From Pelagibius litoralis (lineage in GTDB: Bacteria; Pseudomonadota; Alphaproteobacteria; Kiloniellales; Kiloniellaceae): a stretch of 44,372 bases of DNA. Location of the stretch: the NCBI RefSeq assembly GCF_011683915.1, contig NZ_JAAQPH010000032.1:1-44372 (forward strand), read 5' to 3'. Under the pieces are notes generated by a model that worked only from the letters and a program-made list of their open reading frames with translations, was not told the origin of the DNA and ran no database searches. Every line of letters starts with the position of its first letter. Position 1 is the stretch's first letter. The position numbers were made by a program, and so were the translations under genes. Below are positions 2,715 to 18,905 of the stretch, one piece after another.

Positions 2715-3120
2715 GTGATGGCGATGCAGCTGTCTCAGAAAGCGACGGAACTCGAAATGCGAGATATCCAGATCATGTTGGGTGTTGCTGAAGCTGGAAG
2801 CTTCCGACGAGCCGCGAAATGCTTGAACATTGGGCAGTCCGCCGTAACACGGCGCATTCAGAAGCTTGAGGAAGCGCTCGGCGTATCATTGTTCGAGCGC
2901 CGAACGACTGGCGCTCGATTGACCTATGCAGGATGGTCCTTCGCGCAGCGAGCTCGATCTTTAGCCATTGATGCGGCACACACTGCTGGTAGGGGCAGAA
3001 ACGGACGATTGAAAATCGGTCTGATCGCTTCGCTTTCTTACGGTGCGTTCCGAGAAGTTCTCTTGGCCTATAAATCCAGCCATCCTCAGGTGGAATTGAC
3101 CTTCAGGGCCGCAGCCGGTT
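2715..3120 (+). pseudogene. LysR-family regulator, truncated after about 135 codons
   Basis: The start is a normal LysR DNA-binding domain: a winged helix-turn-helix with AEAGSFRRAAKCLNIGQSAVTRRIQKLEEALGV and the wing LFERRTTGARLT, followed by the linker helix and the first strand of the effector domain (GRLKIGLIASLSYGAFREVL). Recognisable LysR sequence ends near HPQVELTF (about 3110). The remaining open codons to 3215 run antisense through the 3' end of the cyclase gene and past a run of eight Ts (3119-3126). A full LysR protein has about 300 residues, so the effector-binding domain is almost entirely lost. The break sits exactly at the end of the catabolic operon and is probably a rearrangement junction. 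Confidence 0.85.
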
Positions 3121-3139
3121 TTTTTTCTCTCCACCGCGT

Positions 3140-3808
3140 TCAAGTATCCCAGGCGACGACACGCGCTGGGGCCCCGTCACTGGCGAGCAACTTAAGAGGC
3201 AGAGCAGCGAATTGAACGGTCTTTGCTGTGAGTTGCGATGTGCCAATCAGGTATTCGATCAGCGTGATCCCACCTCGCAGCAAAATATCGTGAGAAACGT
3301 GCTCTTCGATCGGTGGCATCTCACCATCAAGCACCCGGCGGATCGTGTGATCTTGCGGGAAGTCAAAGGCGACAGAGGTTGGTTGTCGGTCCTGCAACCA
3401 CAGGCAAGCTTCGGCGGACAGATACGGCGCGTCACGCCAATATTGCGGCGTGCGCCAATCCTTTTGCGCATCCCAACAGGTGCGAAAAAGCGCGATCTGC
3501 CCGGACGCTAGATGCCCCGCGGTGCGGTCCAGATGACTGGCTGTGATTTCTTCGTTTGGGGCGACATCCGACAGGTCGATCACCGCAGCTTTTCCCATCA
3601 CTCGCGACAGATCCAACGCATCCGTTGTTGGCCCACCCGGGACCATGTGGCATGGCGCATCGAGATGTGTGAAAGCGTGACACGAGATGCCGAAAGAGGT
3701 GACTTCAAAGATATCGCCCGCGGTGAAATCACCTTTCTTGTCTCGCTGAAGCGGCCAACGAAAATGACCGCTCTCCAAAGGCATGGTCAGATCATAGATC
3801 ACGGTCAT
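3140..3808 (-). CDS. Cyclase family protein (kynurenine formamidase-like metal hydrolase)
   Basis: The 222-residue protein has the metal-binding signature of the cyclase/KynB-like superfamily, CHAFTHLDAPCH at residues about 45-56 (HxxTHxDxPxH), and a C-terminal GGITLIEYLIG block usual for the family. Members hydrolyse amides or lactones using divalent metal. It is the last gene of the catabolic operon. Its ATG at 3808 overlaps the dctM stop (ATGA), but GGGAGG lies directly against this ATG. The GTG two codons on (3802) is 6 bases from that box and may be the real start. The substrate is unknown. In this setting ring opening of a lactone or imide, or hydrolysis of an amide related to the imported acid, is the natural guess. 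Kynurenine formamidase activity is unlikely because no other kynurenine gene is present. Confidence 0.82.
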   Translation of the reverse strand: MTVIYDLTMPLESGHFRWPLQRDKKGDFTAGDIFEVTSFGISCHAFTHLDAPCHMVPGGPTTDALDLSRVMGKAAVIDLSDVAPNEEITASHLDRTAGHLASGQIALFRTCWDAQKDWRTPQYWRDAPYLSAEACLWLQDRQPTSVAFDFPQDHTIRRVLDGEMPPIEEHVSHDILLRGGITLIEYLIGTSQLTAKTVQFAALPLKLLASDGAPARVVAWDT

Positions 3809-5091
3809 CCTCCCGAATATAGCTGCGGCAAAGTCAAAACGAGGGCCGGAAAGCAAAGGCACAAGATCAGGGCAGCGAAGAGCGCGGCGAGAAAAGGCAG
3901 GCTTTCCCGGATCACCACCTCTGGGCTTTCCTTCGCAATGTAGGCCGACAGATAGATCAGATAGCCAACAGGCGGCGTGGTCAGCCCGATCATCAAATTC
4001 AGCACGATCAGAACGCCGAAATGGATGGGATCAACGCCAATGTCCTGCATCACTGGCAACAGAACCGGGACAGTCACCACGAGCCCTGCAAGCGGGTCCA
4101 TGAACAGACCAATCAGCAGCACAAAGATCATGGCCATCACAAGTACCCAGAAGGGATCGCGGCTGATCGAAAAGATAAGCTCGGCAGCCGTGGTGGAGAC
4201 TTTCAGGTCAGCCACGATCCACGCAAAGACCGAAGAGGCACCCACGATGACCAAGACGGTTGCGCTGCCTTTGGCGGCAGCAACCAAAGCTTCGCCGCAT
4301 CCGGCCCAAGTGAGTTCGCGAAACCAGAACTTGCCGATCACAAAGGCGTAGGCCACGGCGACTGCGCCCGCCTCGGTTGCGGTCATGACGCCGCCCAAAA
4401 TGCCGCCGACGATGATCACCGGCGTCGCCAGTGCGACCAGCGCCGAAGCACCGGCGCGCAGGATTGCACCGACCCCCTGCCACCGCCCAGCCGGATAGCC
4501 CCGCCTGAGCGCCACGACGTAGACCATGACCATCAGGCAGAGCGCCACCAGCAGCCCCGGAAGAACGCCCGCCAGAAACATTTTCCCGACCGATTGCTGG
4601 GCCAGAACCGCATAGACGATCATCGGGATGGATGGCGGTATGATCGGGCCAATGACGCTAGAGCTCTGCGTCACGGCAGCCGCGAAGCCCCGCGAAAAAC
4701 CGGCCTTTTCCATGGCCGGAACCATCACCGAGCCGATCGCAGCGGTATCGGCGACGGCTGAGCCGGAAATGCCTGAGAAAAACACGGAGGAGGCAACGTT
4801 GACATGGCCAAGCCCGCCTCTGATATGGCCGACACAGGCCTCGGCAAACTCAACGATCCTGCGCGTCACACCACCACGGTTCATCAGTTCTCCGGCCAGA
4901 AAGAAGAAGCCGACCGCCAGAAGCAGGAAATTGTCGATCCCGGACAAAAACAGCTGCGCGATGATTTCGAGCGGGATGTAGTCACGGTAGATGAGAAGAG
5001 CCAGCGTCGACGACAGCAGGATCGCAAAGACCAGATGCACGCCCAGAAGCGACAGCCCGATCATCGTACCAAGCAGAACCAACAGGGTCAT
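3805..5091 (-). CDS. dctM: TRAP transporter large permease (DctM-like)
   Basis: The 428-residue, highly hydrophobic protein has the DctM pattern: many membrane spans, GVHLVFAILLSST near the start, the conserved FFLAGELMNRGGVTRRIVEFAEACVGHIRGGL region, SSVIGPIIPPSIPMIVYAV, and FMDPLAGLVVTVPVLLPV plus GLTTPPVGYLIYL toward the C-terminus. It forms the sodium-coupled channel of a TRAP importer in the inner membrane with DctQ, receiving substrate from DctP. The ATG at 5091 overlaps the dctQ stop by 4 bases (ATGA); longer in-frame extensions upstream lie wholly in dctQ and are rejected. The gene is also coupled by ATGA to the downstream cyclase gene. Confidence 0.95.
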   Translation of the reverse strand: MTLLVLLGTMIGLSLLGVHLVFAILLSSTLALLIYRDYIPLEIIAQLFLSGIDNFLLLAVGFFFLAGELMNRGGVTRRIVEFAEACVGHIRGGLGHVNVASSVFFSGISGSAVADTAAIGSVMVPAMEKAGFSRGFAAAVTQSSSVIGPIIPPSIPMIVYAVLAQQSVGKMFLAGVLPGLLVALCLMVMVYVVALRRGYPAGRWQGVGAILRAGASALVALATPVIIVGGILGGVMTATEAGAVAVAYAFVIGKFWFRELTWAGCGEALVAAAKGSATVLVIVGASSVFAWIVADLKVSTTAAELIFSISRDPFWVLVMAMIFVLLIGLFMDPLAGLVVTVPVLLPVMQDIGVDPIHFGVLIVLNLMIGLTTPPVGYLIYLSAYIAKESPEVVIRESLPFLAALFAALILCLCFPALVLTLPQLYSGG

Positions 5092-5540
5092 GCCTTGGGG
5101 TCCTCCTGAAGGCTGAAGTTGCGCCAGATCAGAACGATCGCCCAGGCGACACCGGCAATGAGCGCGGCAGAGAAATACCATGACTTCGAGAGGCCGAGTG
5201 TAACGTAGCGGTCCGACGAGAAGACCGCATTCAACGTCCAGCCCCCCCACACAACCAGCCCGAGTGCAGCGATTCCGGCGATCACGCCAAACTGCGCCAA
5301 AACCGGGCGCAGGCGGGGTTTGTCCGCGATCAGCCCGATCCGCATATGATCCGCGCCAACAGCAGCCAAAAGGATCACCCAGACATAGAGCAGCCGGTTT
5401 GCCTCTTCTGCCCAGATGATCGAACTGTTCAGGACATAGCGGGCAAAGACTTGGCTAACGGTCAGCACCACGACCGCCAGCATCAGCCCGCCCACGGTGA
5501 TGCGCCACAGGCGCACCACCAAGTTTACAAACCTTGTCAC
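5088..5540 (-). CDS. dctQ: TRAP transporter small permease (DctQ-like)
   Basis: The 150-residue protein has four predicted membrane spans and the DctQ signature VSQVFARYVLNSSIIWAEE followed by LLYVWVILLAAVGADHMRIGL. It associates with DctM to make the TRAP membrane complex. It uses a GTG start (5540) that directly follows the TAA of the dctP gene with no intervening base, and ends in an ATGA overlap with dctM. The order P-Q-M and the spacing are those of a standard TRAP operon. Confidence 0.93.
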   Translation of the reverse strand: MTRFVNLVVRLWRITVGGLMLAVVVLTVSQVFARYVLNSSIIWAEEANRLLYVWVILLAAVGADHMRIGLIADKPRLRPVLAQFGVIAGIAALGLVVWGGWTLNAVFSSDRYVTLGLSKSWYFSAALIAGVAWAIVLIWRNFSLQEDPKA

Positions 5541-6530
5541 TTACTTGGCCAACGCATCGACCTTTTGTAGCAATTCGTTGCCGAATTTCTCGACGTAGGC
5601 CACGCGCGTTTGATTGGCGACCGCGTCGCGGAAAGCCGACACGTCCGGCTCTTTGACGACCTCAACACCGGCGTCGATCATCGCTTGCAGGCTTCCCTCC
5701 TCTTTGGCCGCGTTCAGCGCGCGCTCGTAGGACGCAGATAGTTTGGCCGCGACACGCAGCGCTTGCTGGTACTCGGGCTTGAGCCTCGCGAACCGACCGT
5801 AGTTCGCCACCAGCGGCGCCGCCGTATAGGCATGAGCCGTCAGCGAAAGGTGCTTTTGCACCTCATGCAGTTTGGAGGCGTAGATGTGGTTGACCGGATT
5901 TTCCTGCCCGTCGATCGTGCCGGTCTGCAACGCCGAATAGACTTCGGAGAACGGCATCGGCGCTGGATTGGCACCAAGGATCTGGAACGCCTCCAGGTGA
6001 GCTGGATTGGGCGTTGTACGCAGTTTAAGCCCAGTCAAGTCCGCCGGAGATGAGACCGCGCGGACGTTATTGGTCAGGTTGCGGAAGCCGATCTCCCAAA
6101 ACGCCAGTCCTTGCAGGTTCGACTGGTTGATCGACGTCATCAGCGCATCGCCCACTTCGCCATCCATCACCGCATATGCATGTTCCGCCGACTGGAAGAG
6201 AAACGGCAGATCAAGCAGGTTCACCTGCGGGGCGAAGGCTGTGAAGTAGGGGTTGCCCACCAGCACAAGGTCAATGGAACCCAAACGCGCCCCTTCCAGC
6301 ATGGTTGGGGAGTTGCCGAGCTCGCCTGCGGGGTGCAGCGAAATCTCAACCTCGCCACCCGTCATATTTTCGACGGTAAACTTGAAGTGTTCGGCCGCCA
6401 GATACGCTGTGTCGCCAGGTTTGGCATAGTGACCAAAGCGCAAAGTGGCCTCTTGCGCAAATGCTGTGCCAGCAACGGCCATGCCAGCCAGCGCAAGCCC
6501 CAGGGTTTTCAAAATCGTACGTCGTTTCAT
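5541..6530 (-). CDS. dctP: TRAP transporter periplasmic solute-binding protein (DctP-like)
   Basis: The protein has 329 residues, the usual DctP size. An N-terminal signal peptide (MKRRTILKTLGLALAGMAVAGTAFA) ends at an AFA cleavage site; the RRTILK start resembles a Tat motif, though a Sec route is also possible. The mature part has DctP landmarks: LRFGHYAKPGDTAYLAAEHF, the conserved GLKLRTTPNPAHLEAFQILGANP block containing the carboxylate-binding Arg, and EVYSALQTGTIDGQENP. It should bind an organic or sugar acid in the periplasm. The ATG at 6530 is chosen over one four codons upstream because GGAGGA lies 5 bases before it. It sits 18 bases after the lactonase-like gene in the same operon. 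Confidence 0.94.
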   Translation of the reverse strand: MKRRTILKTLGLALAGMAVAGTAFAQEATLRFGHYAKPGDTAYLAAEHFKFTVENMTGGEVEISLHPAGELGNSPTMLEGARLGSIDLVLVGNPYFTAFAPQVNLLDLPFLFQSAEHAYAVMDGEVGDALMTSINQSNLQGLAFWEIGFRNLTNNVRAVSSPADLTGLKLRTTPNPAHLEAFQILGANPAPMPFSEVYSALQTGTIDGQENPVNHIYASKLHEVQKHLSLTAHAYTAAPLVANYGRFARLKPEYQQALRVAAKLSASYERALNAAKEEGSLQAMIDAGVEVVKEPDVSAFRDAVANQTRVAYVEKFGNELLQKVDALAK

Positions 6531-6548
6531 TTTGTCCTCCACTGATAG

Positions 6549-7442
6549 TTATTTTGGCACCGCTTCGATGCCGTAGATGCGTGCCGCTGTGCCGACAAAC
6601 AGCGCGTCACGCTCGGAATCGCCGTAACTTTGTGTGGCGACATCGAACCCGGAAATGATTGTGTCAAAGGACCCACACAGCCCGTCCACCGGAAAGTTGG
6701 AGGCGAACATGGCGCGGTCGGGTGAAAAAATATCGATTGCCTGGCGAATGATGTCGCGATTGTCCTCGATACTCCATGAGCGGCAAGGCAGGCCAAGACC
6801 CGAGATCTTGACGACGGCCTGGGGCATCCGGGCAAACGCCTCCATCGCCGCGCGCCATCCCGCCAGCCCTTCGGGGGAACGGTCCGATGGCAGGCCGGTG
6901 TGGTTTAGAATGATCGGCACATCCGGGGCCAGTTCGGCCATCGCGGGCACCTCGCTCAGGTGCCACCAAGGCGTCTGCAGATCGAACATCAGCCCCGCCT
7001 CGGCCAGGGCCTTGAAGCCCCGACGATAGGCCGGGTCGCTCATCCCTCCGGGTGCGCCCCCGGGCGCGGCATTGGCGCGGGGTTTGTGGCGGACGGATCT
7101 GACAATGGGAAGCTCCGCAATCACATCGATCACAGCGCTCAGGTCATCGCGGTCCAGCCAGGCTTGGGCCACATGGGCTGCGGGGCGATCGGAAGCGTCC
7201 GCGACACCCTGCATCCAGAGCGCCTCACCGGTTGGATCGGCGGGGTCCCACTCCCCCTCCATTGTAACACTGGCCACGACATCCCAGCCTTGGGACGCTT
7301 GATCGTACTCCTCAGCCATGAAGCGGCTGCGGATGGTCGAATAATCCCCGTAGCGGAAGGGGATCATCGGCTCGTTCCGCAGCCAGGGGTGGTAGTTGCG
7401 GACCGGGTCCCAGAAATGGTGATGAGCGTCGATCAGTTTCAC
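6549..7442 (-). CDS. Amidohydrolase family 2 protein, sugar lactonase-like
   Basis: The 297-residue protein belongs to the amidohydrolase_2 (COG3618-type) TIM-barrel family, which includes L-fucono- and related sugar lactonases. Visible motifs are DAHHHFWDP at residues 5-13 (metal-site histidines), VRSVRHKP, ILNHTG with a further His, and MFASNFPVDG at the C-terminal barrel end containing the acidic catalytic residue. The GTG at 7442 is preferred because it overlaps the tctA stop (GTGA) and puts the DAHHHFWD motif at residue 5, as in relatives. Next to a pentonate-degrading set, the likely job is opening a sugar 1,4- or 1,5-lactone to the free acid. The exact lactone is an inference. Confidence 0.88.
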   Translation of the reverse strand: MKLIDAHHHFWDPVRNYHPWLRNEPMIPFRYGDYSTIRSRFMAEEYDQASQGWDVVASVTMEGEWDPADPTGEALWMQGVADASDRPAAHVAQAWLDRDDLSAVIDVIAELPIVRSVRHKPRANAAPGGAPGGMSDPAYRRGFKALAEAGLMFDLQTPWWHLSEVPAMAELAPDVPIILNHTGLPSDRSPEGLAGWRAAMEAFARMPQAVVKISGLGLPCRSWSIEDNRDIIRQAIDIFSPDRAMFASNFPVDGLCGSFDTIISGFDVATQSYGDSERDALFVGTAARIYGIEAVPK

Positions 7443-8911
7443 ATGCGGCTCCGCGCGTGTTTCACAACTGGCCAGACCCAAACGGCAAGCACCGTCAACG
7501 CCAACGCAGCGGCAATCGGGCGAGAGACAAAGATCAGCAGGTTGCCGTCAGATTTGAGCATTGAGGTGACGAAATTGAACTCAAGCATGCCCCCCAGAAC
7601 GATGCCGAGAATGGCAGGGGCCACCGGGATGCCGTTTTCCTCGAACAGCCACCCGACCAGCCCGAAAACCAGCATCACGACGACACTAAAAGCGGTGTTG
7701 TTGATCGCAAAGCTGCCGACAATGCAGCAGGCAAACACCACGGGCAGGTAGTAGGCAGGCTTGATCGTGAGCAAGTGGCGCGAGATACGGATAATGAGCC
7801 AGCCAAAGGGGATAAGCAGCAGGTTGGCCAGAAAGAACGCGATGAAGATCGCGTATACCAGCTCGGGCGTTTTTGTGAAAATGATCGGGCCAGGCTCAAG
7901 CCCTTTGAGGTAGAGTACACCGATGACAATGGCCGTGATGCTGTCGCCGGGGATGCCAAAGACCAGCGTCGGCACCCAAGCACTGGAAAGCGCGCCATTG
8001 TTGGCGGCGCCCGCCTCGACAATGCCTTCGTCATGGCCCTCGCCGAATTTCTCGGGCGTTTTCGATCTGCGCTTGGCCACCGCATAGGCGACCCATGCGG
8101 CGATATCAGCGCCCGCACCTGGCAGCGCACCGATCATTGAACCCGTGAGGCTGCCTCGCAGCAGGTTGGTTTTGCGTCGCATAAGATTGGCACCGAGGCC
8201 CTGAAAGACCGGACCCATATTGGGCGGTGTGATCTTGGCCTGGGTTTGGGTGATATTGCGCAAGATCTCCGGGATGGCGAACATGCCGATCATTGCCGGG
8301 ATGAAGCTGACACCGCCCATTAGTTCGGTCGAGCCGAAGGTAAATCGGGGTTGGCCCGCAACCTCGTCGATGCCGATAGAGGCCACCCATAGGCCGAATA
8401 GCAGCGAGAGCACGCCCTTCAGCGGTGCTCCGGTCGAGATGACGGCGGCGCAGCTCAGACCAAGAAGGGCCAGCCAGAAATACTCTACGGATGAGAAGTT
8501 GGTCGCAAATTTCGCCAACAGCGGCGCGGCAACCATCAGTAGGATCACCCCAATCACGCCGCCGACACAGGCCGCCGCCATAGACAGCCCAAGAGCGCGC
8601 TCCGGGCGGCCCGCCTTCGCCATGGCATGCGCATCTTGCACATAGGCAGCCGAAGCTGGAGTGCCCGGAATTCGCAACAGGGCACCGGGAATGTCGCCTG
8701 CAAAGATCGCCATGGCCGCGAGCGCGGCGATGGCGGAAATCGCAGGCACCGGGTCCATGAAAAAGGTGATCGGGATCAACAGCGCGACACCCATCACCGC
8801 CGTCAGACCCGGAATAGCGCCGATGGTCAGTCCCAGAAGGCTCGCGACAATCACGGTACCCAGCACATCGGGCTGAAAGACCAGAGCCAGCGCTTCGGCG
8901 AAGACGCTCAT
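7439..8911 (-). CDS. tctA: Tripartite tricarboxylate transporter permease TctA
   Basis: The 490-residue membrane protein matches TctA throughout: GLTIGAIPGLTAVMGVALLIP near the N-terminus, LLRIPGTPASAAYVQDAHAMAKAG, GSLTGSMIGALPGAGADIAAW, and EAGAANNGALSSAWVPTLVFGIPGDSITA. It is the large channel subunit of the TTT importer, working with TctB and the binding protein TctC. The ATG at 8911 is chosen because it overlaps the tctB stop (ATGA) and stands about 10 bases from GGAGG; an ATG three codons upstream touches the same box too closely. A second, decayed copy of a tctA gene is present at 15793-16378 in the same operon. Confidence 0.95.
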   Translation of the reverse strand: MSVFAEALALVFQPDVLGTVIVASLLGLTIGAIPGLTAVMGVALLIPITFFMDPVPAISAIAALAAMAIFAGDIPGALLRIPGTPASAAYVQDAHAMAKAGRPERALGLSMAAACVGGVIGVILLMVAAPLLAKFATNFSSVEYFWLALLGLSCAAVISTGAPLKGVLSLLFGLWVASIGIDEVAGQPRFTFGSTELMGGVSFIPAMIGMFAIPEILRNITQTQAKITPPNMGPVFQGLGANLMRRKTNLLRGSLTGSMIGALPGAGADIAAWVAYAVAKRRSKTPEKFGEGHDEGIVEAGAANNGALSSAWVPTLVFGIPGDSITAIVIGVLYLKGLEPGPIIFTKTPELVYAIFIAFFLANLLLIPFGWLIIRISRHLLTIKPAYYLPVVFACCIVGSFAINNTAFSVVVMLVFGLVGWLFEENGIPVAPAILGIVLGGMLEFNFVTSMLKSDGNLLIFVSRPIAAALALTVLAVWVWPVVKHARSRM

Positions 8912-9366
8912 ATGAGCCATCCCTCCACAACACCAAACGGCAACGGAATGCGAAGCAGCACGCCGAAAATCACGTGCAGAAGAAGGGTCAGCCCGACCGC
9001 CACGCCAAGCCCGATCAATACCCGGCCACCGGCCAAGAGAATCAGTGCGAGAATGAGCAAGAACGTCGTTAGGATAAATCCCAGAGATGGCCCAAGCAGA
9101 ACCCAGGCGATGCCGCCCGCGAGCAGCGCTGCGGCCCTGAGCCCGCGGCGCGAGCGCATCCAGTCTGGCAGGGTGAACCAGGGCCTCGTCGAGGGGCCTA
9201 GGATCATCGCAAGCCCTGTGAGCGCCAGACAAGCCGCCGTGATGTGCGGGAAGAATGCCGAGCCAAATTGTTGGCCGGGCACAGCGCGAAACCCGAAGGT
9301 GCCGTACACGATAGCGACTGCGCCAACTACAGCGACGATGCCGATGAAGCGATTGGAAAACTGCAT
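8908..9366 (-). CDS. tctB: Tripartite tricarboxylate transporter small subunit TctB
   Basis: The 152-residue protein has four hydrophobic segments and the TctB layout: an N-terminal span, the short conserved stretch GQQFGSAFFPHITAACLALTGL, and paired C-terminal spans including GFILTTFLLILALILLAGGR. It is the small membrane subunit of the TTT system. It lies 48 bases after tctC and overlaps tctA by four bases. Confidence 0.92.
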   Translation of the reverse strand: MQFSNRFIGIVAVVGAVAIVYGTFGFRAVPGQQFGSAFFPHITAACLALTGLAMILGPSTRPWFTLPDWMRSRRGLRAAALLAGGIAWVLLGPSLGFILTTFLLILALILLAGGRVLIGLGVAVGLTLLLHVIFGVLLRIPLPFGVVEGWLI

Positions 9367-9414
9367 GGTTTTTTGCGTGCTCGGGCCGACACCAGGCCGA
9401 CCCGAGCGTGCCTG

Positions 9415-10377
9415 TTACTTGGCGATACCAAGATCTGTCAGCAGTTCTTTGGCCGCGCCGGAAAACTCTGCGGCGAAGGCGGAGAACGCCTCGGATCCGT
9501 CGAACAGCGGGGTGATTCCGCGCTGCGCTAAGGCGTCCTGAACTGCAGCCGATCCATGTGCCGCTTCAGCTGCAGTTTCAATCTTGGCCTTGATGTCCTC
9601 TGGAAGCCCCGACGGCGCACAGAGCGAGAACCAGTTCGTCAGCGACCAATCCACGCCGCTTTCCTTCAGCGTCGGCACGTCAGGGAACGCAGGGGAGCGC
9701 TCATCAGCCATGATGCCGAGGATCTTAACTTCTCCAGCATCTGCAAGCGCGCGGGCTTCAATAGGCGATCCAGTGAACATGCTGATACCGCCAGACACCA
9801 AATCCTGTAGCGCCGGGGCGCCGCCCTTTGATGGAATGAACTTGACCGTGTCTGCCGAAGCACCTGCCGTTTTCATCATGCCGGCAACCGCCATGTGCCA
9901 TGGCCCCCCAAGCCCCGAGCCGGACGATGACAACTCACCTGACTTGGCGGCTTCAACCACCTCTTGAATGGACCCATAAGGACTGTCGGCCGCGACCGTC
10001 ACGCCAGCCGGGATCGTTGCAAGTCGTGAGATCAGATCGTAACTGGCTGGATTAATATCTGCCAAACCGACGGTCTCGAAATAGGTGATTTCAGACGTGC
10101 AAGCGCCCAGCGTGTAGCCATCAGCTGTGCTGTTGGCAATGGCCGAATGCCCTACAACGCCGGAGCCGCCGGTGCGGTTGATAACATTGATGGGCTGGCC
10201 CAGCTCTTTTTCGAATCCAACGGCAAATATACGGATGATGGTGTCGGTGCCGCCGCCTGCGCCCCAAGGCACGATGATTGTGACGGGACGCTCGGGGTAT
10301 TCTGCCAGCGCGGGCGCCGCGACAAGGGTTGCAAGTGCCGTCAGTCCGGCGGCAAAAGTGAACTTTAACGATGTCAT
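9415..10377 (-). CDS. tctC: Tripartite tricarboxylate transporter substrate-binding protein TctC
   Basis: The 320-residue periplasmic protein is of the Bug/TctC family. A Sec signal peptide (FTFAAGLTALATLVAAPALA) is followed by EYPERPVTIIVPWGAGGGTDTIIR, the hallmark of the family. The C-terminal half has FIPSKGGAPALQDLVSGGISMF and PSGLPEDIKAKIE. These proteins bind carboxylates with high affinity. The ATG at 10377 has GGAGG about six bases upstream; an in-frame start six codons earlier lacks one. The gene lies 66 bases behind the semialdehyde dehydrogenase gene, so substrate capture and catabolism are co-transcribed. Confidence 0.94.
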   Translation of the reverse strand: MTSLKFTFAAGLTALATLVAAPALAEYPERPVTIIVPWGAGGGTDTIIRIFAVGFEKELGQPINVINRTGGSGVVGHSAIANSTADGYTLGACTSEITYFETVGLADINPASYDLISRLATIPAGVTVAADSPYGSIQEVVEAAKSGELSSSGSGLGGPWHMAVAGMMKTAGASADTVKFIPSKGGAPALQDLVSGGISMFTGSPIEARALADAGEVKILGIMADERSPAFPDVPTLKESGVDWSLTNWFSLCAPSGLPEDIKAKIETAAEAAHGSAAVQDALAQRGITPLFDGSEAFSAFAAEFSGAAKELLTDLGIAK

Positions 10378-10443
10378 TTCATCCTCCCATGCCACTGTTT
10401 GCGTAATAACCGCACTCGGCGTGGCGACCGGGCACGGATTTTC

Positions 10444-11949
10444 TCAGAACGTCTCGGGCAAAAGCGCGTCTGGGACGTTTTGGTAGCAGACAGGGCGCAA
10501 GAAGCGCCGGATGGACAAAGTGCCAACCGAAGTGGCACCAAAATTGGTCGAGGCTGGATAAGGCCCGCCATGGACCATCGTGTCGGAGACCTCGACGCCC
10601 GTTGGAAAACCATTGACCAAGACGCGGCCTGCCTTGCGCTCGATCAGCGGCATCAGGGCTTGGGCCGCGCCCGTGTCGTCCTCATCCATGTGGAGCGTGC
10701 AGGTCAGCTGCCCCTGGATGGCGCGCGCGATGTCGGCCATTTCGTCAAGGTTTTCGGCCACGACGACGATGCCTAAGGGGCCAAACACCTCTTCTTGCAG
10801 GTCGTGATTGGCCAGCCAGTCCGTGGCCGAGATCTGATAGAGGTAGGGCTTGGCCTCGCGACCGTCGCGAGCCGTGCCCAGTAACTCGCTCACGCCCGCG
10901 CCATCTGCCACACGAGCCACACCGCTGCGATAGGCGTCGGCAATGCCGTCGGTCAGCATGGTCTGCGCGCTTGCATCTTTCAAAGCGGATTTGGCTGCGC
11001 TGACAAAACCTTCTGCACCGGGCAGGACCACGGCGATGCCGGGGTTTGTGCAGAACTGCCCCGCGCCCATGGTGAGCGAGCCGGCCCAACCGATGCCAAT
11101 CTCGGCACCACGAGCCTTCGTGGCCGCCGGCAGGAGGAACATCGGGTTGACGGAGCCAAGCTCGCCAAAGAAGGGGATCGGCTCGGGCCGCGCAGCACAG
11201 AGGTCAAACAAGGCGCGCCCGCCAGCGAGTGAGCCTGTAAAGCCCACGGCGCGGATCAGCGGGTGCTGCACCAGTGCGGTGCCCACGTCGCGTTTGCCGC
11301 CTTGGATGAGGCTGAATGTGCCTGCGGGCATGCCGGTTTTCTGGATCGCCGCGTAAATGGCCTCGGCCACGATCTCGCCCGTGCCGGGATGGGCAGAATG
11401 GCCTTTCACCACCACGGGGCAACCTGCGGCCAATGCTGCCGCCGTGTCACCGCCTGCGGTCGAAAAGGCCAGCGGAAAGTTGGAGGCCCCAAAGACCGCA
11501 ACGGGGCCGATGGGCCGCTGGATCATCTTGAGGTCCGGCCGTGGCAGCGGCGCGCGGTCGGGCAAGGGAGCATCATGGCGGCGGTCCAGATAGTCACCCT
11601 TCAGGATATGCTCGGCAAAGAGGCGCAATTGCCCCATTGTCCGCCCGCGTTCGCCCTGAAGCCGCGCCGCGGGCAAACCGGTCTCTTGCGTGCCAATCTC
11701 GGTGATGGCGTCGCCGCGGGCCTCGATCTCATCCGCGATTGCGTTGAGGAAGGCCGCGCGGCTCTCGCGGGTGCCGCAGCCATAGGTCTCGAATGCCACC
11801 TCAGCGGCCTCGCAAGCCCGGCTGACCAGGTCGGTCGTGCCGATGCAAAAGGCGTGGGCGGAACCATGCGCAGGCTCAGAGGTAAAGGTCTGATCAGCCG
11901 CGACCCAATCGCCGGCAACCAGGTGTTTTCCGTGCGGTATAAAGCTCAC
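10444..11949 (-). CDS. Alpha-ketoglutarate semialdehyde dehydrogenase (2,5-dioxovalerate dehydrogenase)
   Basis: The 501-residue aldehyde dehydrogenase carries all catalytic residues: Asn157 (GASNFPLAF), Lys182 (VVVKGHSAHPGTG), Glu263 (FFGELGSVNP) and the nucleophile Cys300 (GAGQFCTNPG). The VVVKGHSAHPGTGE and GELGSVNPMFLLP blocks are typical of the alpha-ketoglutarate semialdehyde dehydrogenase group rather than general ALDHs. It would oxidise 2,5-dioxopentanoate to 2-oxoglutarate with NAD(P)+, the last step of non-phosphorylative pentose-acid and of hydroxyproline degradation. The 2-keto-3-deoxy-L-arabinonate dehydratase in the same operon, and the absence of hydroxyproline enzymes, point to the sugar-acid route. 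Confidence 0.92.
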   Translation of the reverse strand: MSFIPHGKHLVAGDWVAADQTFTSEPAHGSAHAFCIGTTDLVSRACEAAEVAFETYGCGTRESRAAFLNAIADEIEARGDAITEIGTQETGLPAARLQGERGRTMGQLRLFAEHILKGDYLDRRHDAPLPDRAPLPRPDLKMIQRPIGPVAVFGASNFPLAFSTAGGDTAAALAAGCPVVVKGHSAHPGTGEIVAEAIYAAIQKTGMPAGTFSLIQGGKRDVGTALVQHPLIRAVGFTGSLAGGRALFDLCAARPEPIPFFGELGSVNPMFLLPAATKARGAEIGIGWAGSLTMGAGQFCTNPGIAVVLPGAEGFVSAAKSALKDASAQTMLTDGIADAYRSGVARVADGAGVSELLGTARDGREAKPYLYQISATDWLANHDLQEEVFGPLGIVVVAENLDEMADIARAIQGQLTCTLHMDEDDTGAAQALMPLIERKAGRVLVNGFPTGVEVSDTMVHGGPYPASTNFGATSVGTLSIRRFLRPVCYQNVPDALLPETF

Positions 11950-11989
11950 CTTGGGTAATCCCGTTGTCCGATGTCAATCTATGGCGACG

Positions 11990-12991
11990 TCACGCCGCCT
12001 CGTTCTTTGCGTTTTGGGCCATGCGCACCAACAGCTCGAAGGCCTGCCGGGTTGCGCCGACATTGGCGATGCCTTGGCCCGCGATATCAAAAGCCGTTCC
12101 ATGGGCAGGTGTGGCCACAGGGATCGGCAGGCCGCCCACCACCGTCACGCCACGTTCAAAGCCCATCAGTTTGATCGCGATCTGACCCTGGTCATGATAC
12201 ATGGTCACCACGGCGTCGACCTCGCCTCGCATGGCCTTCAGGAACACCGTGTCTGATGGCCAGGGGCCCGTCACATTCATCTGCTTTTTCTGGAAGGCTT
12301 TGACGACGGGTTCGATCACGTCGATTTCCTCGCGTCCGAACTTGCCATTGTCGCCCGCATGGGGGTTCAGGGCTGCGACCGCCACATGGGGCCGCATCTT
12401 GCCGGAGCGTGCCAGTGTGTCATGGGCCAACTCAACGGCGCGCAGGATGCCGGGGCCATCGATGTTGGTGGCCACGTCCTTCAGGCCGATGTGACTTGTG
12501 ACGCGGGTGGTCATGAGGTCATCAAGCACGTTGATTTCCGAATGATAGCCCTCAAAGCCCAAGTAGCGCGCCATATAGCGGTGCTCATCCTCGGCGTTGA
12601 GCCCGGCGGAGGTCATGGCGGCCTTGTTGAAGGGCGCAAACAGCACGCCGTCCACATGGCCCGCTTGTGCGAGATCGAGAGCTTTATCCAGACAGCGCAG
12701 CGACGTGTTGCCACCTGCCATGGTGACCTCCGCGACTTTCACATCACCCGCGTCGATGGTCTGAAGGTCAAGATGCGCCAGACCGTCAAACGCGCCAACG
12801 TCAGCCTCACCGATCGTTTTCAGCTGCACCTCAACCCCGGCCTGCTCAGCGCCGCGCTGCCACAGATGCGCGTCACCCACCAGCAGGATATCGGCGGCCT
12901 CAAGCACACTGTCTTCATTCAAAAGCTTGGCAATCAGTTCTGGCCCGATACCGGAGGGGTCACCGGGGACAATGGCAAGTCTGGGACGCAT
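11990..12991 (-). CDS. PdxA-family dehydrogenase (4-hydroxythreonine-4-phosphate dehydrogenase-like)
   Basis: The 333-residue protein aligns well with PdxA: GDPSGIGPEL at residues 10-19, and the three metal histidines at H167 (SHIGLKD), H211 (NPHAGDNGKFG) and H266 (YHDQGQI), matching the usual positions. PdxA-family enzymes oxidise and decarboxylate 3-hydroxy acids with NAD+. Besides vitamin B6 synthesis, PdxA2 paralogues work on four-carbon acid phosphates (threonate/erythronate) and TphB on a dihydrodiol. PdxA2 normally sits beside a DUF1537 kinase; no such kinase is in this operon. Its start overlaps the GntR stop by one base (TGATG). A catabolic role is likely and a B6 role unlikely, but the substrate is open. 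Confidence 0.88.
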   Translation of the reverse strand: MRPRLAIVPGDPSGIGPELIAKLLNEDSVLEAADILLVGDAHLWQRGAEQAGVEVQLKTIGEADVGAFDGLAHLDLQTIDAGDVKVAEVTMAGGNTSLRCLDKALDLAQAGHVDGVLFAPFNKAAMTSAGLNAEDEHRYMARYLGFEGYHSEINVLDDLMTTRVTSHIGLKDVATNIDGPGILRAVELAHDTLARSGKMRPHVAVAALNPHAGDNGKFGREEIDVIEPVVKAFQKKQMNVTGPWPSDTVFLKAMRGEVDAVVTMYHDQGQIAIKLMGFERGVTVVGGLPIPVATPAHGTAFDIAGQGIANVGATRQAFELLVRMAQNAKNEAA

Positions 12992-13704
12992 CAGTCGGCT
13001 TCCTTGGCGGTTTCAATCTCGGTGATCGCGGCGGCGATATTGGTCTCCGCCGTGCGTAGGTGGCTCTTTAGCGCTTTCCGCGCGGCAGCGGCATCGCGGG
13101 CCTTGAGGGCCTCGACGATGTCCAGGTGTTCGCTCCGGGTGGCATCGCGGCTGGCAATCCGTTGGGATGACAAAAACCGCACCCGCCACAGGCGCGCATT
13201 GTAGGTCGCATGGGTTTCGGCCAAAGCCTCATTCCCGGACGCAGCCACAATGGCCTCGTGGAAACGCATATCCATGCGGAACGCCTCTAGCTGCCCGTCC
13301 GTGTCCCGGGCCTCTTTGATCGATGTATTGATTTCCTCGATCTTGGCCAGCTGCGCGTCGGTAGCCTCTGCGCAGGCCAGTTCGCCCGCCAGAGCCTCCA
13401 ACGCGCCCTGGACCCGCAGCCAATCGTTAATTTCATCCAGCGACGGGTCGGCCACGCGTGGGCGGCGGGTGGGGCCGTAGACGATCAGCCCTTCGGTTTC
13501 GAGGATCCGCAATGCCTCTTTCAGGGGCGTTCGGCTGATGCCAAAGGCCTCGGCCAGATCCCGTTCGCGCACCGACATCCCCGGTGCAAGCCTGCCCAGC
13601 ATGATGAATTCGCGCAGGTTATCCGCCGCCTCCATCGCGAGCGACTGCCGCGGTTTTAGCTCTACAAATTCGCGCAGTTCATTTGTCCAGGCGCTCTCAC
13701 TCAT
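12991..13704 (-). CDS. GntR-family regulator, FadR subfamily (FCD domain)
   Basis: The 237-residue protein has an N-terminal GntR winged helix (NLREFIMLGRLAPGMSVRERDLAEAFGISRTPLKEALRILETEGL, residues about 29-74). A FadR-type FCD effector domain follows, with the metal-binding pattern Asp (FRMDMRFHEAI), His in that helix, and further His in RSEHLDIVEAL and LKSHL. FCD-GntR proteins usually repress a catabolic operon until its acid substrate or an intermediate binds. The gene is embedded within the operon it probably controls, between the deoxyarabinonate dehydratase (1-base gap) and pdxA-like genes. A matching operator-like palindrome is present at the operon promoter (16649-16665). Confidence 0.92.
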   Translation of the reverse strand: MSESAWTNELREFVELKPRQSLAMEAADNLREFIMLGRLAPGMSVRERDLAEAFGISRTPLKEALRILETEGLIVYGPTRRPRVADPSLDEINDWLRVQGALEALAGELACAEATDAQLAKIEEINTSIKEARDTDGQLEAFRMDMRFHEAIVAASGNEALAETHATYNARLWRVRFLSSQRIASRDATRSEHLDIVEALKARDAAAARKALKSHLRTAETNIAAAITEIETAKEAD

Positions 13705-13705
13705 C

Positions 13706-14617
13706 TTATGTCCCCCAACGCAGTACCAGTGGATCCAGAGACCGCAGAAGGTCGATCAACCGAGAGCGGATCGCCGGGTGAAGGGGTGGGATAGGGTGGC
13801 GGCAGAACTCGGATTTGATCACGCCGCCTTCCACCATTGCAGCCTTGCAAGATTGCCAGCCACATTGCCGGTTTTCATGGTTGACGGCCATTGCCACTCG
13901 GCCGTAGGCCTCCGTGGCGCCCGAGACATCACCCGCGCGATACTTCGTAATAACCGGCTTGATCTGATCGACTATCATGCCGCTGGTCATCGAGCCCGTG
14001 GCACCCGCGTCGAGATCGGCAAGCAACGTGATCGCCTCCTCACCGTCGAAAGGTGCTTCAATTGCGTCCTCGCCCTGCTCGATCAACGCACGGATTTTGT
14101 TAGCCGCGCGGGGGCACTCGATCTTAAAGAGCTTCACCGCCTCGATCTCCTTGGCCATCCGCACCAACAGCGGCACAGGCAGCTCAACGCCTGATAGCGG
14201 CGCGTCCTGCACCATGATCGGGATACCCACCTTTCCCACGGCGGCAAATTGTTCGAAGCTCTGCTCGGGCGTGCCTTTGAGCAGCGCACCGTGATAGGGA
14301 GGCATCATCATCACGATATCTGCACCAAGATCCTTGGCAAAACGCGCCCGTTCCACCGCGATCTGGGTCGCGTAGTGGCTGATCGTGACGATCACGGGCA
14401 CACGGCCTGCAATATGTTCCACGCTCAGCTGCGCCAGCACTTCGCGTTCGGCATCCGATATCAGGAACTGTTCCGAAAAATTGGCAAGCACGCAGATGCC
14501 ATCGGCACCTTGATCAATCAGGCAATCGAGCACCCGTTTCATACCCTCAAGGTCAAGCGTGCCGTCGTCGTTAAAGGGCGTGGGGGCGACGGGCCATATG
14601 CCGGAATACGTACTCAT
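13706..14617 (-). CDS. 2-keto-3-deoxy-L-arabinonate dehydratase (DHDPS/NAL superfamily)
   Basis: The 303-residue protein is of the dihydrodipicolinate synthase/N-acetylneuraminate lyase superfamily but carries signatures of the deoxyarabinonate dehydratase branch: ANFSEQF in place of the usual [17 protein letters not shown] in place of the YNVP region, Schiff-base Lys165 in [23 protein letters not shown], and the C-terminal LDPLVLRWG. These match my memory of the characterised Azospirillum enzyme along most of the length. It dehydrates 2-keto-3-deoxy-L-arabinonate (an L-pentonate-derived ketodeoxy acid) to alpha-ketoglutarate semialdehyde. Its start overlaps the stop of the enolase-family gene by four bases (ATGA), linking successive pathway steps. 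This is the strongest functional anchor of the operon. Confidence 0.9.
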
Positions 14618-15789
14618 TCGGTGATCTCGAAATGCTGGAGGTGCTTGTCGGTGATAGAGATGCCCAGACCCGGCGTGTTGTCATCCAGTTGCAGATATCC
14701 GTCCACCGCCTCGGCGTCGCCCTCGAAGATATAGTAGAACAGCTCATTGCCGACCTCGACGTCGAAGACGGGGAAGTATTCGCTGATCGGGCAGTTCGTA
14801 TTGGCCATGGTGAGGTGGTAATTATGCATCTGGCCTGCATGGGGGATCACAGGGATCTGCGCGGCCTCGGCAATGGCGTTGATCTTTTGTGCCGCTGTGA
14901 TCCCGCCCACGCGGTTGGTATCGTATTGCAGGATGCTGACGGCCTTTTTCTGGATGAGTTCATTGCAGCCCATGACGCTGAACTCATGCTCGCCGCCAGA
15001 GATCGGCACGATGCCCATCGCATTCAGCTCTGCATAACCCGCCACATCATCGGCAATCACCGGCTCCTCAAGCCAGCGGGGTTCGAACTTCATCAGTTTC
15101 GGCAGCATCCGCTTGGTATAATCCAGGGTCCAGCCCATGTAACATTCGAGCATGAGGTCCACGTCGTAGCCCAACACCTCGCGCAGGGCTTCAACCCGCT
15201 TGAGGTTCTCGCGCATGCCCGACATGCCATCTTTGGGGCCAAAGCCGAACCGGGACTTATAGGCCTGATAGCCGTTCTTCTGTGCATCTTCGGCCTCGCG
15301 CTGCATCGCCTCGATGCTGTCGGCATAAAGCTTGGAGTAATAGACCGGGATCTTCTCTTTCGTGCGTCCGCCCAAAAGCTTGAAGACTGGTTTGTTCACC
15401 AGCTTGCCCATCAGGTCCCAGATGGCGATGTCGATAGCCGAGATAGCCGTCATGCCGATGCCCTTGCGGCCCCAGGCATGGGTCCGGCGATACATCTTTT
15501 CCCAGATATAGGCGTAGTCGAACGGATCTTCGCCGATCACCAAGGGCGCGTACCAGTCATCAATCGCCTGCTTGACCACCGTGGGCGCCAGGGCCGCGTT
15601 GCCGATGCCGATGGTGCCGTCTTCTGCCTCTACCTCGCAAGTCAGCCATTGGTGAAACCGGAAAGAAGCCATGGCGTCGCCCTTGATCCACAACGCATCC
15701 GAGGCATTGGTGCAGAAATTGCCCTGAGGAGGAACAGTCGGGCCGGTCCAGTTCCAAACGCGGGTGCGGATAGATTTGATCTTGGTCAT
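14614..15789 (-). CDS. Enolase-superfamily sugar-acid dehydratase (rhamnonate/lyxonate dehydratase-like)
   Basis: The 391-residue protein is a mandelate racemase-subgroup member of the enolase superfamily. Residues seen: a Lys-x-Arg motif (K178, [12 protein letters not shown]), metal ligands E215 (LMLECYMGW), E241 (WLEEPV) and E267 (SGGEHEF), and the Asp-His dyad D290 ([10 protein letters not shown]) and H317 ([11 protein letters not shown]). It most resembles acid-sugar dehydratases around L-rhamnonate and L-lyxonate dehydratase, which remove water from C2-C3 to give a 2-keto-3-deoxy acid. Because the next gene encodes a 2-keto-3-deoxy-L-arabinonate dehydratase, an L-pentonate (for example L-lyxonate or L-arabinonate) fits better than the six-carbon rhamnonate. 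It is the first intact gene of the operon. Confidence 0.87.
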
Positions 15790-15792
15790 TAA

Positions 15793-16378
15793 TTACTCTC
15801 GAGTGGAAACCATGGGGTCTCGTTGTTTGAACAGACGGCGCCAGAACAACGGCCCGAACAGCGCAAGAATGGTGAGCACAAGGAACAGAAGTGTCAGTGG
15901 GCGGGCAAACATCAACCACCGTTGATCGTCGAGCATGATCAAAGACTGACCGAGGCGCTTTTCGAGCATTCCGCCGAGGATCAGCCCAATAGCCAGCGGT
16001 ACAACCGAATAGCCAGAGCTGCGCAGAATGGTCTTCCACACGCGGCCATACTCCTCGCGCGTGGGCAGCTTAATGGCTTTCATAGAGACCTGACGCCGCT
16101 CGACGCTGAGCCGTTCCGCCTGCACCAAAAGCTCGGATATGCCGAAAATCCCAATCATCACTGGTAGGAAGCCGATGCCCTCGGACAACTCGTTAAAGCC
16201 GAAGGTAAAGCGCTCGACCGTGGTCAGCAGGTCCTTACCAACGGTCGCCAACAGGACACCGAAGGCCCCCGCGATGATGTTCTTCAAAGGCGTGCCATCG
16301 CCAATGGTGGCCAGCATCGAAATGCCAAAGACAGTCAGCGCGAAGTATTCGGGTGGCGCGAAGTTATACTCCATGCGT
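15793..16378 (-). pseudogene. tctA relic: N-terminus lost, middle deleted
   Basis: The open frame (196 codons to 16383) is two pieces of a TctA permease joined together. The first is the central region (PPEYFALTVFGISMLATIGDGTPLKNIIAGAFGVLLATVGKD, then GIGFLPVMIGIFGISELL). The second is the C-terminal tail (LAIGLILGGMLEKRLGQSLIM, FARPLTLLFLVLTILALF). The join is around RVWKTILRSSGYSV. Missing are the first roughly 110 residues and a block of roughly 200 or more residues that includes the GALPGAGADI and AANNG motifs. It cannot form a transporter. It lies at the front of the operon, only 3 bases from the enolase-family gene, so it is presumably transcribed. Confidence 0.85.
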
Positions 16379-16389
16379 GCCATGAGGGG

Positions 16390-16584
16390 CGCGTTTGTTA
16401 ACGACGACCATATCGGTACCCAGTTCTCGACGCGCGCGGATCATCATCATCCGCGTCGTTACATCCGTGCCGCCGCCATTACCGGCGTGCGCAATCACTT
16501 CGATGGTTTTGGATGGATATTCCTCAGCGGCAGGATCACCGCTTACAACTGCTGCAGCTGCCGCGATGGCAAACAGTTTTTCAT
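16390..16584 (-). pseudogene. tctC relic: N-terminal fragment with frameshift
   Basis: On the minus strand an ATG at 16584, with GGGAGG about 7 bases upstream, begins a TctC-type leader. One base is missing in the A-run after the first codons, so the literal frame stops at once. After correcting the shift it reads LFAIAAAAAVVSGDPAAEEYPSK, then TIEVIAHAGNGGGTDVTTR, the family hallmark seen also in the intact TctC (VTIIVPWGAGGGTDT), and ends near MVVVNKRA. It then meets the tctA relic, with tctB absent. Together these are the remains of a first TTT transporter operon. Confidence 0.8.
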
Positions 16585-16648
16585 TGATTTTCCTCCCTTG
16601 GATAATGCGCGCATTCAGCGCCTGTCACCATCATAAACAATATTCTGT

Positions 16649-16671
16649 ATTTTGGAATACCAAATATTATA
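16649..16671 (-). promoter_or_regulatory. Promoter -10 box and GntR-type operator of the catabolic operon
   Basis: On the minus strand a perfect TATAAT is read at 16671-16666. Directly downstream, at 16649-16665, lies ATTTTGGAATACCAAAT. Its core TTGGAATACCAA (16652-16663) differs by one base from TTGGTATACCAA, the known type of site for FCD-GntR proteins such as LldR and UxuR/ExuR. A nested palindrome GTATT-N4-AATAC overlaps it. The position, about 65 bases before the first coding remnant, suits repression by occlusion of transcription start. I do not see a good -35 box. Confidence 0.65.
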
Positions 16672-16771
16672 ATTTGACCTCCATAATTGATTTTCCTATT
16701 GATATTACAATTGGAAGCTGCGTCACAGGAACGAGCTGGCCGGATCGATGACAGCCCGTTAGCGTTGTCTC

Positions 16772-17198: not shown

Positions 17199-17297
17199 CA
17201 CAGACCTACTCTCCCGAACCCCTATATTCACTTCGGGAAGATGTGACAGTGCCCCGCCATGCGCCTTTCCATCTCGGCTGGCGTTTGGCGATGGCGA

Positions 17298-18796: not shown

Positions 18797-18905
18797 AGCC
18801 CTTCTTTTGTCACAGCGGTGGCCGGTACCGGAGTTTTGGACCACGATCCCGCGTTCCAGGCAACCTGGACTTGACCGGCGCGAAGCGGCGCTAGTTTATG
18901 AGGGG

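Follow-up and report, generated by a model that had tools for sequence, protein, structure and literature searches.

A candidate operon for the degradation of 2-carboxy-L-lyxonate and L-lyxonate in Pelagibius litoralis

Gene content and borders of the operon

We analysed a stretch of 44,372 nucleotides from Pelagibius litoralis (contig NZ_JAAQPH010000032.1 of assembly GCF_011683915.1), referred to here as the window, which carries an operon headed by lyxD, the gene for a predicted L-lyxonate dehydratase of the enolase superfamily. Open reading frame (ORF) calls and Pfam matches delimit thirteen intact genes at 3140-15789, all on the minus strand (Table 1). Read from lyxD to the cyclase gene, the distances between neighbours are -4, 1, -1, 40, 66, 48, -4, -4, 18, 0, -4 and -4 nt, negative values being overlaps; five of the twelve junctions overlap by 4 nt, one by 1 nt, and the rest are spaced by 0, 1, 18, 40, 48 and 66 nt. 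This agrees with an earlier sequence-only reading of the same DNA, which had listed thirteen one-strand genes of these families, in this order and with short overlaps (found at 6/12 junctions). As argued below, the operon probably degrades 2-carboxy-L-lyxonate and L-lyxonate from dehydroascorbate decay to alpha-ketoglutarate, a reading to which we assign a probability of about 0.66 on the strength of sequence comparisons.

Table 1. Features of the operon and of its borders (window coordinates; TTT, tripartite tricarboxylate transporter; TRAP, tripartite ATP-independent periplasmic transporter; HTH, helix-turn-helix)
Feature	Position	Strand	Basis
lyxD, L-lyxonate dehydratase, enolase superfamily (predicted)	14614-15789	-	PDB matches, catalytic motifs
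kdlD, L-2-keto-3-deoxypentonate dehydratase, DapA superfamily (predicted)	13706-14617	-	PDB matches
gntR, FCD-type GntR regulator	12991-13704	-	Pfam GntR and FCD
pdxA-like, proposed 2-carboxy-L-lyxonate decarboxylase	11990-12991	-	Pfam PdxA, residues, clade
alpha-ketoglutarate semialdehyde dehydrogenase (predicted)	10444-11949	-	Pfam Aldedh, PDB match
tctC, solute receptor of second-type TTT importer	9415-10377	-	Pfam TctC
tctB	8908-9366	-	Pfam TctB
tctA	7439-8911	-	Pfam TctA
Amidohydrolase-2 family, proposed lactonase (2-carboxy-L-lyxonolactone or similar)	6549-7442	-	Pfam Amidohydro_2
dctP, TRAP solute receptor	5541-6530	-	Pfam DctP
dctQ	5088-5540	-	Pfam DctQ
dctM	3805-5091	-	Pfam DctM
cyclase-family (PF04199) metal hydrolase, probably coupled to TRAP genes	3140-3808	-	Pfam Cyclase
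decayed first TctCBA: tctC start (frame broken) and tctA remnant	15793-16675	-	colinearity with L015, L018
palindromic operator TTTGGTATTCCAAA, proposed FCD-GntR binding site	16651-16664	-	sequence match, association with gntR
truncated LysR gene running into operon end, left edge of block	2715-3140 (listed also as 2715-3215)	+	LysR HTH (Pfam)

Roseobacter insulae (loci L015 and L125) has all thirteen genes in identical order, the cyclase included, together with an intact first TctCBA importer. DNA homology to this species covers 3148-16675 of the window at 79-84% identity, nearly exactly the span of 3140-16671 that the sequence-only reading had drawn. The remnant upstream of lyxD is colinear with the intact tctC1-tctB1-tctA1 genes of L015 and L018, save for two deletions in which positions 7224-8884 (about 1.66 kb) and 9266-9767 (about 0.5 kb) of L015 are missing; its tctC frame breaks shortly past the start, as judged by eye, and Pfam TctA matches its ORF 15793-16383. 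The earlier description of the block was thus right in gene content, and it had overlooked this remnant and the operator and given the PdxA-like enzyme no role. The Rfam scan at gathering thresholds and the tRNA scan of the window returned nothing. Scans for promoters and terminators reported no site on the operon strand; one promoter-like and one terminator-like site within 16500-16800, and a terminator-like site at 3105-3122, are not the operon's because all of them lie on the plus strand. Among the ten operon proteins scanned with NCBIfam, DctP alone reached cut-offs (two models).

Predicted enzymes and their genomic neighborhoods

The best solved relatives of LyxD are 3sqs (850 bits), 3stp (829.6) and 3ssz (811), and the next, a rhamnonate dehydratase, follows at 183.8 bits. 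The 3stp protein and the one encoded by lyxD of Roseibium aggregatum IAM 12614 (L025) are identical over 389 residues, and the LyxD of the window shares 347 of 391 positions with the latter, retaining K178-S-R180 and H317 (the KxR motif and the catalytic histidine). R. aggregatum was formerly called Labrenzia aggregata, the organism whose LyxD structure Ghasempur et al. (2014) reportedly described; of the two residues reportedly named there, Arg179 belongs to the KxR motif of the R. aggregatum protein and His316 is its catalytic histidine. The first step is therefore very probably the dehydration of L-lyxonate by an enolase-family enzyme.

KdlD matches 3fkk (351 bits) and 7c0c (350.8), which are L-2-keto-3-deoxyarabonate dehydratases. 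The semialdehyde dehydrogenase scores 786.5 bits against 3v4c, an NADP+ aldehyde dehydrogenase, is also related to 1eyy, and is 76% identical to the product of a Marinovum gene annotated as ketoglutarate semialdehyde dehydrogenase. With these predicted functions, LyxD, KdlD and the dehydrogenase make up the established route from L-lyxonate to alpha-ketoglutarate. The sequence-only reading had proposed a conversion of 2-keto-3-deoxy-L-pentonate to alpha-ketoglutarate with an enolase-type dehydratase and two unrelated importers, which stands. It had further regarded the enolase as an unusual substitute for an IlvD/EDD dehydratase, which is not supported: the enolase route is the established L-lyxonate pathway, and solved structures exist for very close relatives of this enolase. 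Pfam finds no IlvD/EDD dehydratase, the type used in the L-arabinonate pathway, among the thirteen genes. The L-lyxonate degradation pathway of Pseudomonas aeruginosa was reportedly described by Ghasempur et al. in 2014 (Biochemistry). That pathway is reported to have the same LyxD of the enolase superfamily, a second dehydratase of the DapA family and a semialdehyde dehydrogenase, whereas the window differs in the regulator, importers, amidohydrolase, cyclase and operator. The 2014 work on L-lyxonate is cited in PMC6336799 and PMC10444878.

The neighborhoods of lyxD were surveyed in the best 80 of 589 confirmed loci; in 59 of the 80, called long loci here, the flank on either side of lyxD measures 5 kb or more. 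Because the loci were cut about 10 kb away from lyxD, genes further out are missed, for example the cyclases of L015 and L018, which lie just beyond. Within this range a PdxA relative (at least 40% identity) occurs in 55 of the 59 long loci, a kdlD relative in 56, a relative of the window GntR in 44 and the semialdehyde dehydrogenase (at least 50%) in 33. First-type tctA is found in 36/59, second-type tctA (at least 55%) in 6/59, dctM relatives in 21/59, the amidohydrolase in 5/59 and the cyclase in 2/59. One locus (L034) contains two gntR-pdxA pairs, with PdxAs from different sub-clades, one pair accompanied by a semialdehyde dehydrogenase and the other following lyxD-kdlD.

In Escherichia coli PdxA the substrate residues, phosphate-binding ones among them, are H136, T137, N283 and R292; the PdxA-like enzyme of the window carries E, H, T and V at these positions. 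N283 and R292 are lost in all 87 PdxA rows that the loci supplied, a number in which the window and two identical rows are counted. Position 136 is E in 86 of these rows and Y in one, whereas histidines 166, 211 and 266, which bind metal, are conserved, also in the window. The D-threonate 4-phosphate dehydrogenases 6e85 and 2hi1 retain the E. coli residues, as judged by eye. A function as PdxA proper, 4-hydroxythreonine-4-phosphate dehydrogenase, was considered; the changes at these four positions speak against it, as does the score against TIGR00557, which at 259.8 bits lies below the cut-off of 290.35.

Phylogenetic analysis places the window PdxA in a clade of 35 rows (SH-like approximate likelihood ratio support 100) with the PdxAs of Ruegeria-type clusters that encode a beta-propeller and an SMP-30 protein, while those on plasmids of Paraburkholderia, Sphingomonas and Variovorax form a clade separate from the window's; the tree was built by a quick method, with long-branch warnings, from rows that do not include the characterised reference decarboxylase. 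Stack et al. (JACS, 2020) reportedly found that a PdxA-family protein decarboxylates 2-carboxy-L-lyxonate in the L-ascorbate pathway of Ralstonia eutropha H16. We propose that the window PdxA is such a 2-carboxy-L-lyxonate decarboxylase, a role that its residues and clade would fit. Together with the amidohydrolase, this enzyme points to 2-carboxy-L-lyxonate, a breakdown product of ascorbate, as a substrate.

Entry of the substrate and rival explanations

Complete-looking clusters with b561, SMP-30, YncE propeller, PdxA and LyxD genes (product names as given in the records) lie on plasmids of Paraburkholderia graminis, Sphingomonas parapaucimobilis and a Variovorax. Ruegeria and Phaeobacter (L011, L013) carry propeller-pdxA-lyxD-kdlD-kgsadh-SMP30 clusters whose pdxA, lyxD and kdlD are 77-78%, 85% and 83-85% identical to those of the window. 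The Ruegeria and Phaeobacter clusters possess a propeller and SMP-30, unlike the window operon, and their stretches contain no TctCBA, no GntR of the window type (at least 45%) and no operator match. With the L-ascorbate pathway reported for R. eutropha H16, the window shares the amidohydrolase family, the PdxA family, LyxD, the second dehydratase and the dehydrogenase. It differs in that TctCBA is present, that the genome gives no propeller match and the window none for b561 or SMP-30 of the ascorbate type, and that 2-carboxy-L-lyxonate or its lactone would be the point of entry. Specifically, the b561 and SMP-30 proteins of P. graminis have no match in the window (E 1e-8), to which the b561 search was confined. 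A b561-like gene at 18260-18844 was considered as an ascorbate oxidase and rejected, as it does not match the P. graminis protein, is assigned to Ni_hydr_CYTB by Pfam and stays under the NCBIfam cut-off.

The beta-propeller, presumed here to catalyse the rearrangement step of the ascorbate pathway, has no match in the P. litoralis genome (E up to 0.001). With the same query, a full-length ortholog (78-85% identity) was found in 7 of 49 related genomes, drawn from the genomes of the 80 loci; these seven are the ones with a propeller in the lyxD locus, and the remaining 42 gave weak matches (at most 58.6 bits) in 18 cases and none in 24 (E up to 0.001). No match was found in 23 genomes of the host's own family, a set searched at E up to 1e-40 and without a positive control. 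A first-type TctCBA stands beside lyxD in 36 of the 52 long loci without propeller and in none of the seven with one. In the resulting table (0 both, 7 propeller only, 36 first-type tctA only, 16 neither) the exclusion has a Fisher p of 0.0007, for loci that are not independent. The propeller was counted as present at 150 bits or more; if a weak match in L065 is included, the table becomes 1 both, 35 tctA only, 7 propeller only and 16 neither. If a bacterium imports the branched dicarboxylate ready-made, TctCBA beside lyxD and pdxA, with no propeller, is the arrangement to be expected.

The 2020 ascorbate work is cited in PMC11066805 and PMC10444878. According to PMC11066805, 2,3-diketogulonate from the hydrolysis of dehydroascorbate is converted non-oxidatively to 2-carboxy-L-pentonate and its lactones, which slowly lose CO2 to give L-lyxonate and L-xylonate. 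The branched acid and its lactones also appear among the products of 2,3-diketogulonate with H2O2 in PMC6225978. According to PMC5812351, the TTT substrates characterised so far, nicotinic acid excepted, bear either two carboxylic groups or others, for instance sulfate or amide.

Under the proposed mechanism, the rearrangement would be left to spontaneous chemistry outside the cell, the propeller being absent, and TctCBA would import the branched dicarboxylate 2-carboxy-L-lyxonate, its lactone, or both. The amidohydrolase would open the lactone, the PdxA-like enzyme would decarboxylate 2-carboxy-L-lyxonate to L-lyxonate, LyxD would remove water to give 2-keto-3-deoxy-L-lyxonate, and KdlD would remove water once more to give alpha-ketoglutarate semialdehyde, which the dehydrogenase would convert to alpha-ketoglutarate. 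DctPQM and the cyclase would let in a further compound, be it an acid, a lactone or an ester, by a side route. Sequence comparison shows the kinship of LyxD and KdlD with named enzymes, the residue changes in PdxA, the gene order, the operator association and the missing propeller match in this assembly; the substrates of the importers, the amidohydrolase and the cyclase, the decarboxylation by this PdxA and the site bound by the GntR we infer. That the sugar acids of the operon stem from natural decay of vitamin C is very likely. The chemistry is mostly known, from two known pathways, and what looks new is the mode of entry and the control of the operon. We found no description of a variant with TctCBA entry among the matches listed for lyxonate, ascorbate and TTT transporters in titles and abstract openings of open-licence PMC articles.

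The second-type TctCBA, amidohydrolase, DctPQM and cyclase form a second module, present as one block after the core genes in L015, L018 (its cyclase placed by coordinates), L030 and L042. In the last two loci the PdxA belongs to another sub-clade and the semialdehyde dehydrogenase does not lie between core and module. The module is also complete in Ponticoccus (L097), whose cluster lacks lyxD and has a PdxA that is divergent (identities of 71% for tctC, 77% for tctA, 65% for the amidohydrolase, 58% for dctP and 51% for the cyclase), and in Chelatococcus its parts are divided between two facing sets. The cyclase, which matches kynurenine formamidase and isatin hydrolase weakly, adjoins TRAP genes in seven of nine other loci (L030, L042, L097, L098, L099, L100 and L125); in the other two, L124 and L116 (a short contig), none of the genes in the query panel turned up near the cyclase. 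A second related substrate or a conjugate, as suggested by the sequence-only reading, is a reasonable assumption for the TRAP/cyclase part. Several close plasmid relatives of the amidohydrolase sit near PdxA or LyxD, and two that were examined do not; the protein is 39-40% identical to enzymes of the same Pfam family near lyxD and propeller in three Burkholderia records. Judged by these relatives, a lactonase function is plausible. The best solved relatives of DctP are 4p47, 4nq8, 4xeq, 4pdd, 4p9k and 4pdh.

Several observations weigh against degradation of 2-carboxy-L-lyxonate taken up in finished form. Equating the YncE-like propeller with the 'WD40-like' rearrangement enzyme reported in 2020 is our own assumption, and the Ruegeria propeller (L011) lies below every Pfam cut-off, with sub-threshold propeller matches only. 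Of the 59 long loci, 16 have neither propeller nor first-type tctA. Outside the window the genome encodes one SMP-30 homologue (60%), so that part of the ascorbate route could exist together with an unrelated rearrangement enzyme. In 54/59 long loci there is no amidohydrolase relative nearby, and opening of a lactone is therefore no general need; the amidohydrolase of the complete P. graminis cluster is separated from the window's by a very long branch. The residue losses of PdxA are not specific to lyxD clusters, since a Pasteurella PdxA beside DhaKL, and not beside LyxD, shows them too. Moreover, the loci are related to each other, which makes the association tests only indicative, and draft genomes may miss genes.

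Among other explanations, a plain L-lyxonate or L-lyxonolactone operon, in which the importers bring L-lyxonate and PdxA is unrelated or minor, seems unlikely. The three core enzymes would suffice for L-lyxonate, and PMC6336799 reports growth of P. aeruginosa PAO1 on it, but this would leave the PdxA relatives at most lyxD loci (55/59) unaccounted for, and PdxAs of several sub-clades all without the phosphate-binding residues. Even less probable is a hexonate or hexarate pathway (rhamnonate, galactarate, glucarate), which ranks last: public records do call the enolase L-rhamnonate dehydratase, yet it scores 199.7 bits against the RhmD model (cut-off 393) and 177.1 against the galactarate model (cut-off 500), and KdlD scores 51.6 bits against the KdgD model (cut-off 373.95). 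The sequence-only reading had named a preference of the dehydratase for hexonates such as L-rhamnonate or for galactarate as the result that would speak against it, and at the level of sequence these scores, all far below their cut-offs, give no sign of it. We also think it improbable, between these two in standing, that the operon covers ascorbate degradation completely. In that case TRAP would import dehydroascorbate or 2,3-diketogulonate, and the propeller would be replaced by the cyclase or the amidohydrolase. We know of no precedent for a rearrangement by a hydrolase of the cyclase fold; its family does include isatin hydrolase, which opens a cyclic amide (the weak matches noted above), and dctM relatives are present at 21/59 lyxD loci. 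Against this, the cyclase occurs in just 5 of the 49 related genomes (E up to 1e-35), although 42 of them lack a propeller ortholog, and in Paracoccus and Pasteurella the TRAP/cyclase pair sits with other sugar genes.

For the TRAP/cyclase part, the rival we take most seriously is a four-carbon decay product of ascorbate: TRAP and cyclase would import and open a derivative such as threonate lactone or oxalyl-threonate. This is possible, if rather doubtful, and compatible with the uptake of 2-carboxy-L-lyxonate through TctCBA. In Paracoccus versutus the TRAP/cyclase set precedes otnK and otnC, and the neighbors of the Pasteurella set are PdxA, DhaKL, rpiB and pentose-phosphate genes, but the window DctP is just 46-47% identical to those of the two loci and the operon itself holds no gene of a four-carbon pathway. 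The P. litoralis genome encodes a 3-oxo-tetronate kinase above the NCBIfam cut-off (G000:C22:48073-48750; L118:8068-9333), by which the host may use four-carbon sugar acids. Furthermore, 4P47, the best solved match of DctP, is grouped with receptors mostly holding pantoate or erythronate in PMC11668362, and oxalyl-threonate and its cyclic form are oxidation products of dehydroascorbate in PMC6225978. If this explanation is true, the operon would gain two branches of vitamin C decay.

Control, origin and implications

The palindrome TTTGGTATTCCAAA precedes the ruined tctC and is the sole exact match of TTTGGNATNCCAAA in the window. Of 40 relatives, 30 carry TTGGN4CCAA in the 300 bases that precede tctC1, compared with 0.14 of 40 in shuffled sequences. 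In the set of 80 loci, a copy of TTGGNATNCCAA no more than 420 bases in front of tctC1 or lyxD (median distance 99 bases) accompanies a GntR gene (at least 45%) in 39; 12 have GntR without the site, one has the site without GntR and 28 have neither, an association inflated by kinship among the loci. We propose TTTGGTATNCCAAA as the predicted site of the FCD-GntR regulator, which would control its own operon through this palindrome.

The lyxD of the window is 95% identical to Roseobacter proteins and belongs to a set of nine tree rows (98/95), the other eight being five Roseobacteraceae, one Paracoccaceae and two metagenome-assembled genomes (MAGs) labelled Ectothiorhodospiraceae and Flavobacteriaceae. 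A second, resident lyxD of the same genome (G000:C55, L113) is 71% identical and distant in the tree, and the best lyxD in the host's family outside its own genome is 84% identical. This family includes Denitrobaculum: the lyxD of D. tricleocarpae has a 100% DNA match in one of its genomes (G053), through which the host was placed after a search for rRNA in its own genome had found none. Eleven operon genes have a third-position (GC3) content of 0.61-0.77; four genes of the resident locus, which make a small sample, have 0.85-0.90. The homology to R. insulae ends at 3148 on the left, where the LysR gene is cut, and at 16675 on the right, beyond which lies a transposase-like fragment (16772-16993, by eye). 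These observations suggest that the block was probably acquired horizontally from a marine donor of the Roseobacter type by a host of the Denitrobaculum family. Such pathways can travel, as they are found on plasmids: a conjugative Paraburkholderia plasmid (L102) bears an ascorbate-type cluster, and a mobilizable Qingshengfaniella plasmid (L012) bears a TctCBA-lyxD-kdlD-gntR-pdxA set.

The resident cluster (L113:6135-14888) encodes GntR, TRAP genes, PdxA (47%) and LyxD (71%), with a protein of the AraD1/GguC family in place of KdlD and a large gene that resembles trimethylamine methyltransferase by eye; no operator site was found in it. The broken transposase-like frame on the right of the block extends over 16772-17220 and is IS6-like by eye, its first 74 residues having no Pfam match. 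On the plus strand at 527-1309, a single frame starts as a peptidase S15/alpha-beta hydrolase and ends as an integrase core, as if a gene had run into an insertion element. A lyxD cluster is also found in a Bacteroidota MAG (L033) with a LyxD 88% identical, by transfer or by binning error.

More broadly, and tentatively, at somewhat less than even odds, many marine alphaproteobacteria may use vitamin C only once it has decayed: the TctCBA at the side of lyxD would be a dedicated importer of 2-carboxy-L-threo-pentonate formed spontaneously from 2,3-diketogulonate, the FCD-GntR regulator and TTTGGTATNCCAAA would act as the switch, and TRAP and cyclase would take up a second decay product. The missing enzyme would be replaced by spontaneous chemistry. 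With the operator, further clusters of this kind can be searched for in a simple way. The names L-rhamnonate dehydratase and 4-hydroxythreonine-4-phosphate dehydrogenase, which these enzymes carry in public annotation, may hide a common route for the decay products of vitamin C. If the assignment of the importer is true, the common PdxA-like gene of lyxD clusters would be explained, TTT transporters would gain a new kind of ligand, and carbon would flow from algal and plant ascorbate into these bacteria without an ascorbate-specific enzyme.

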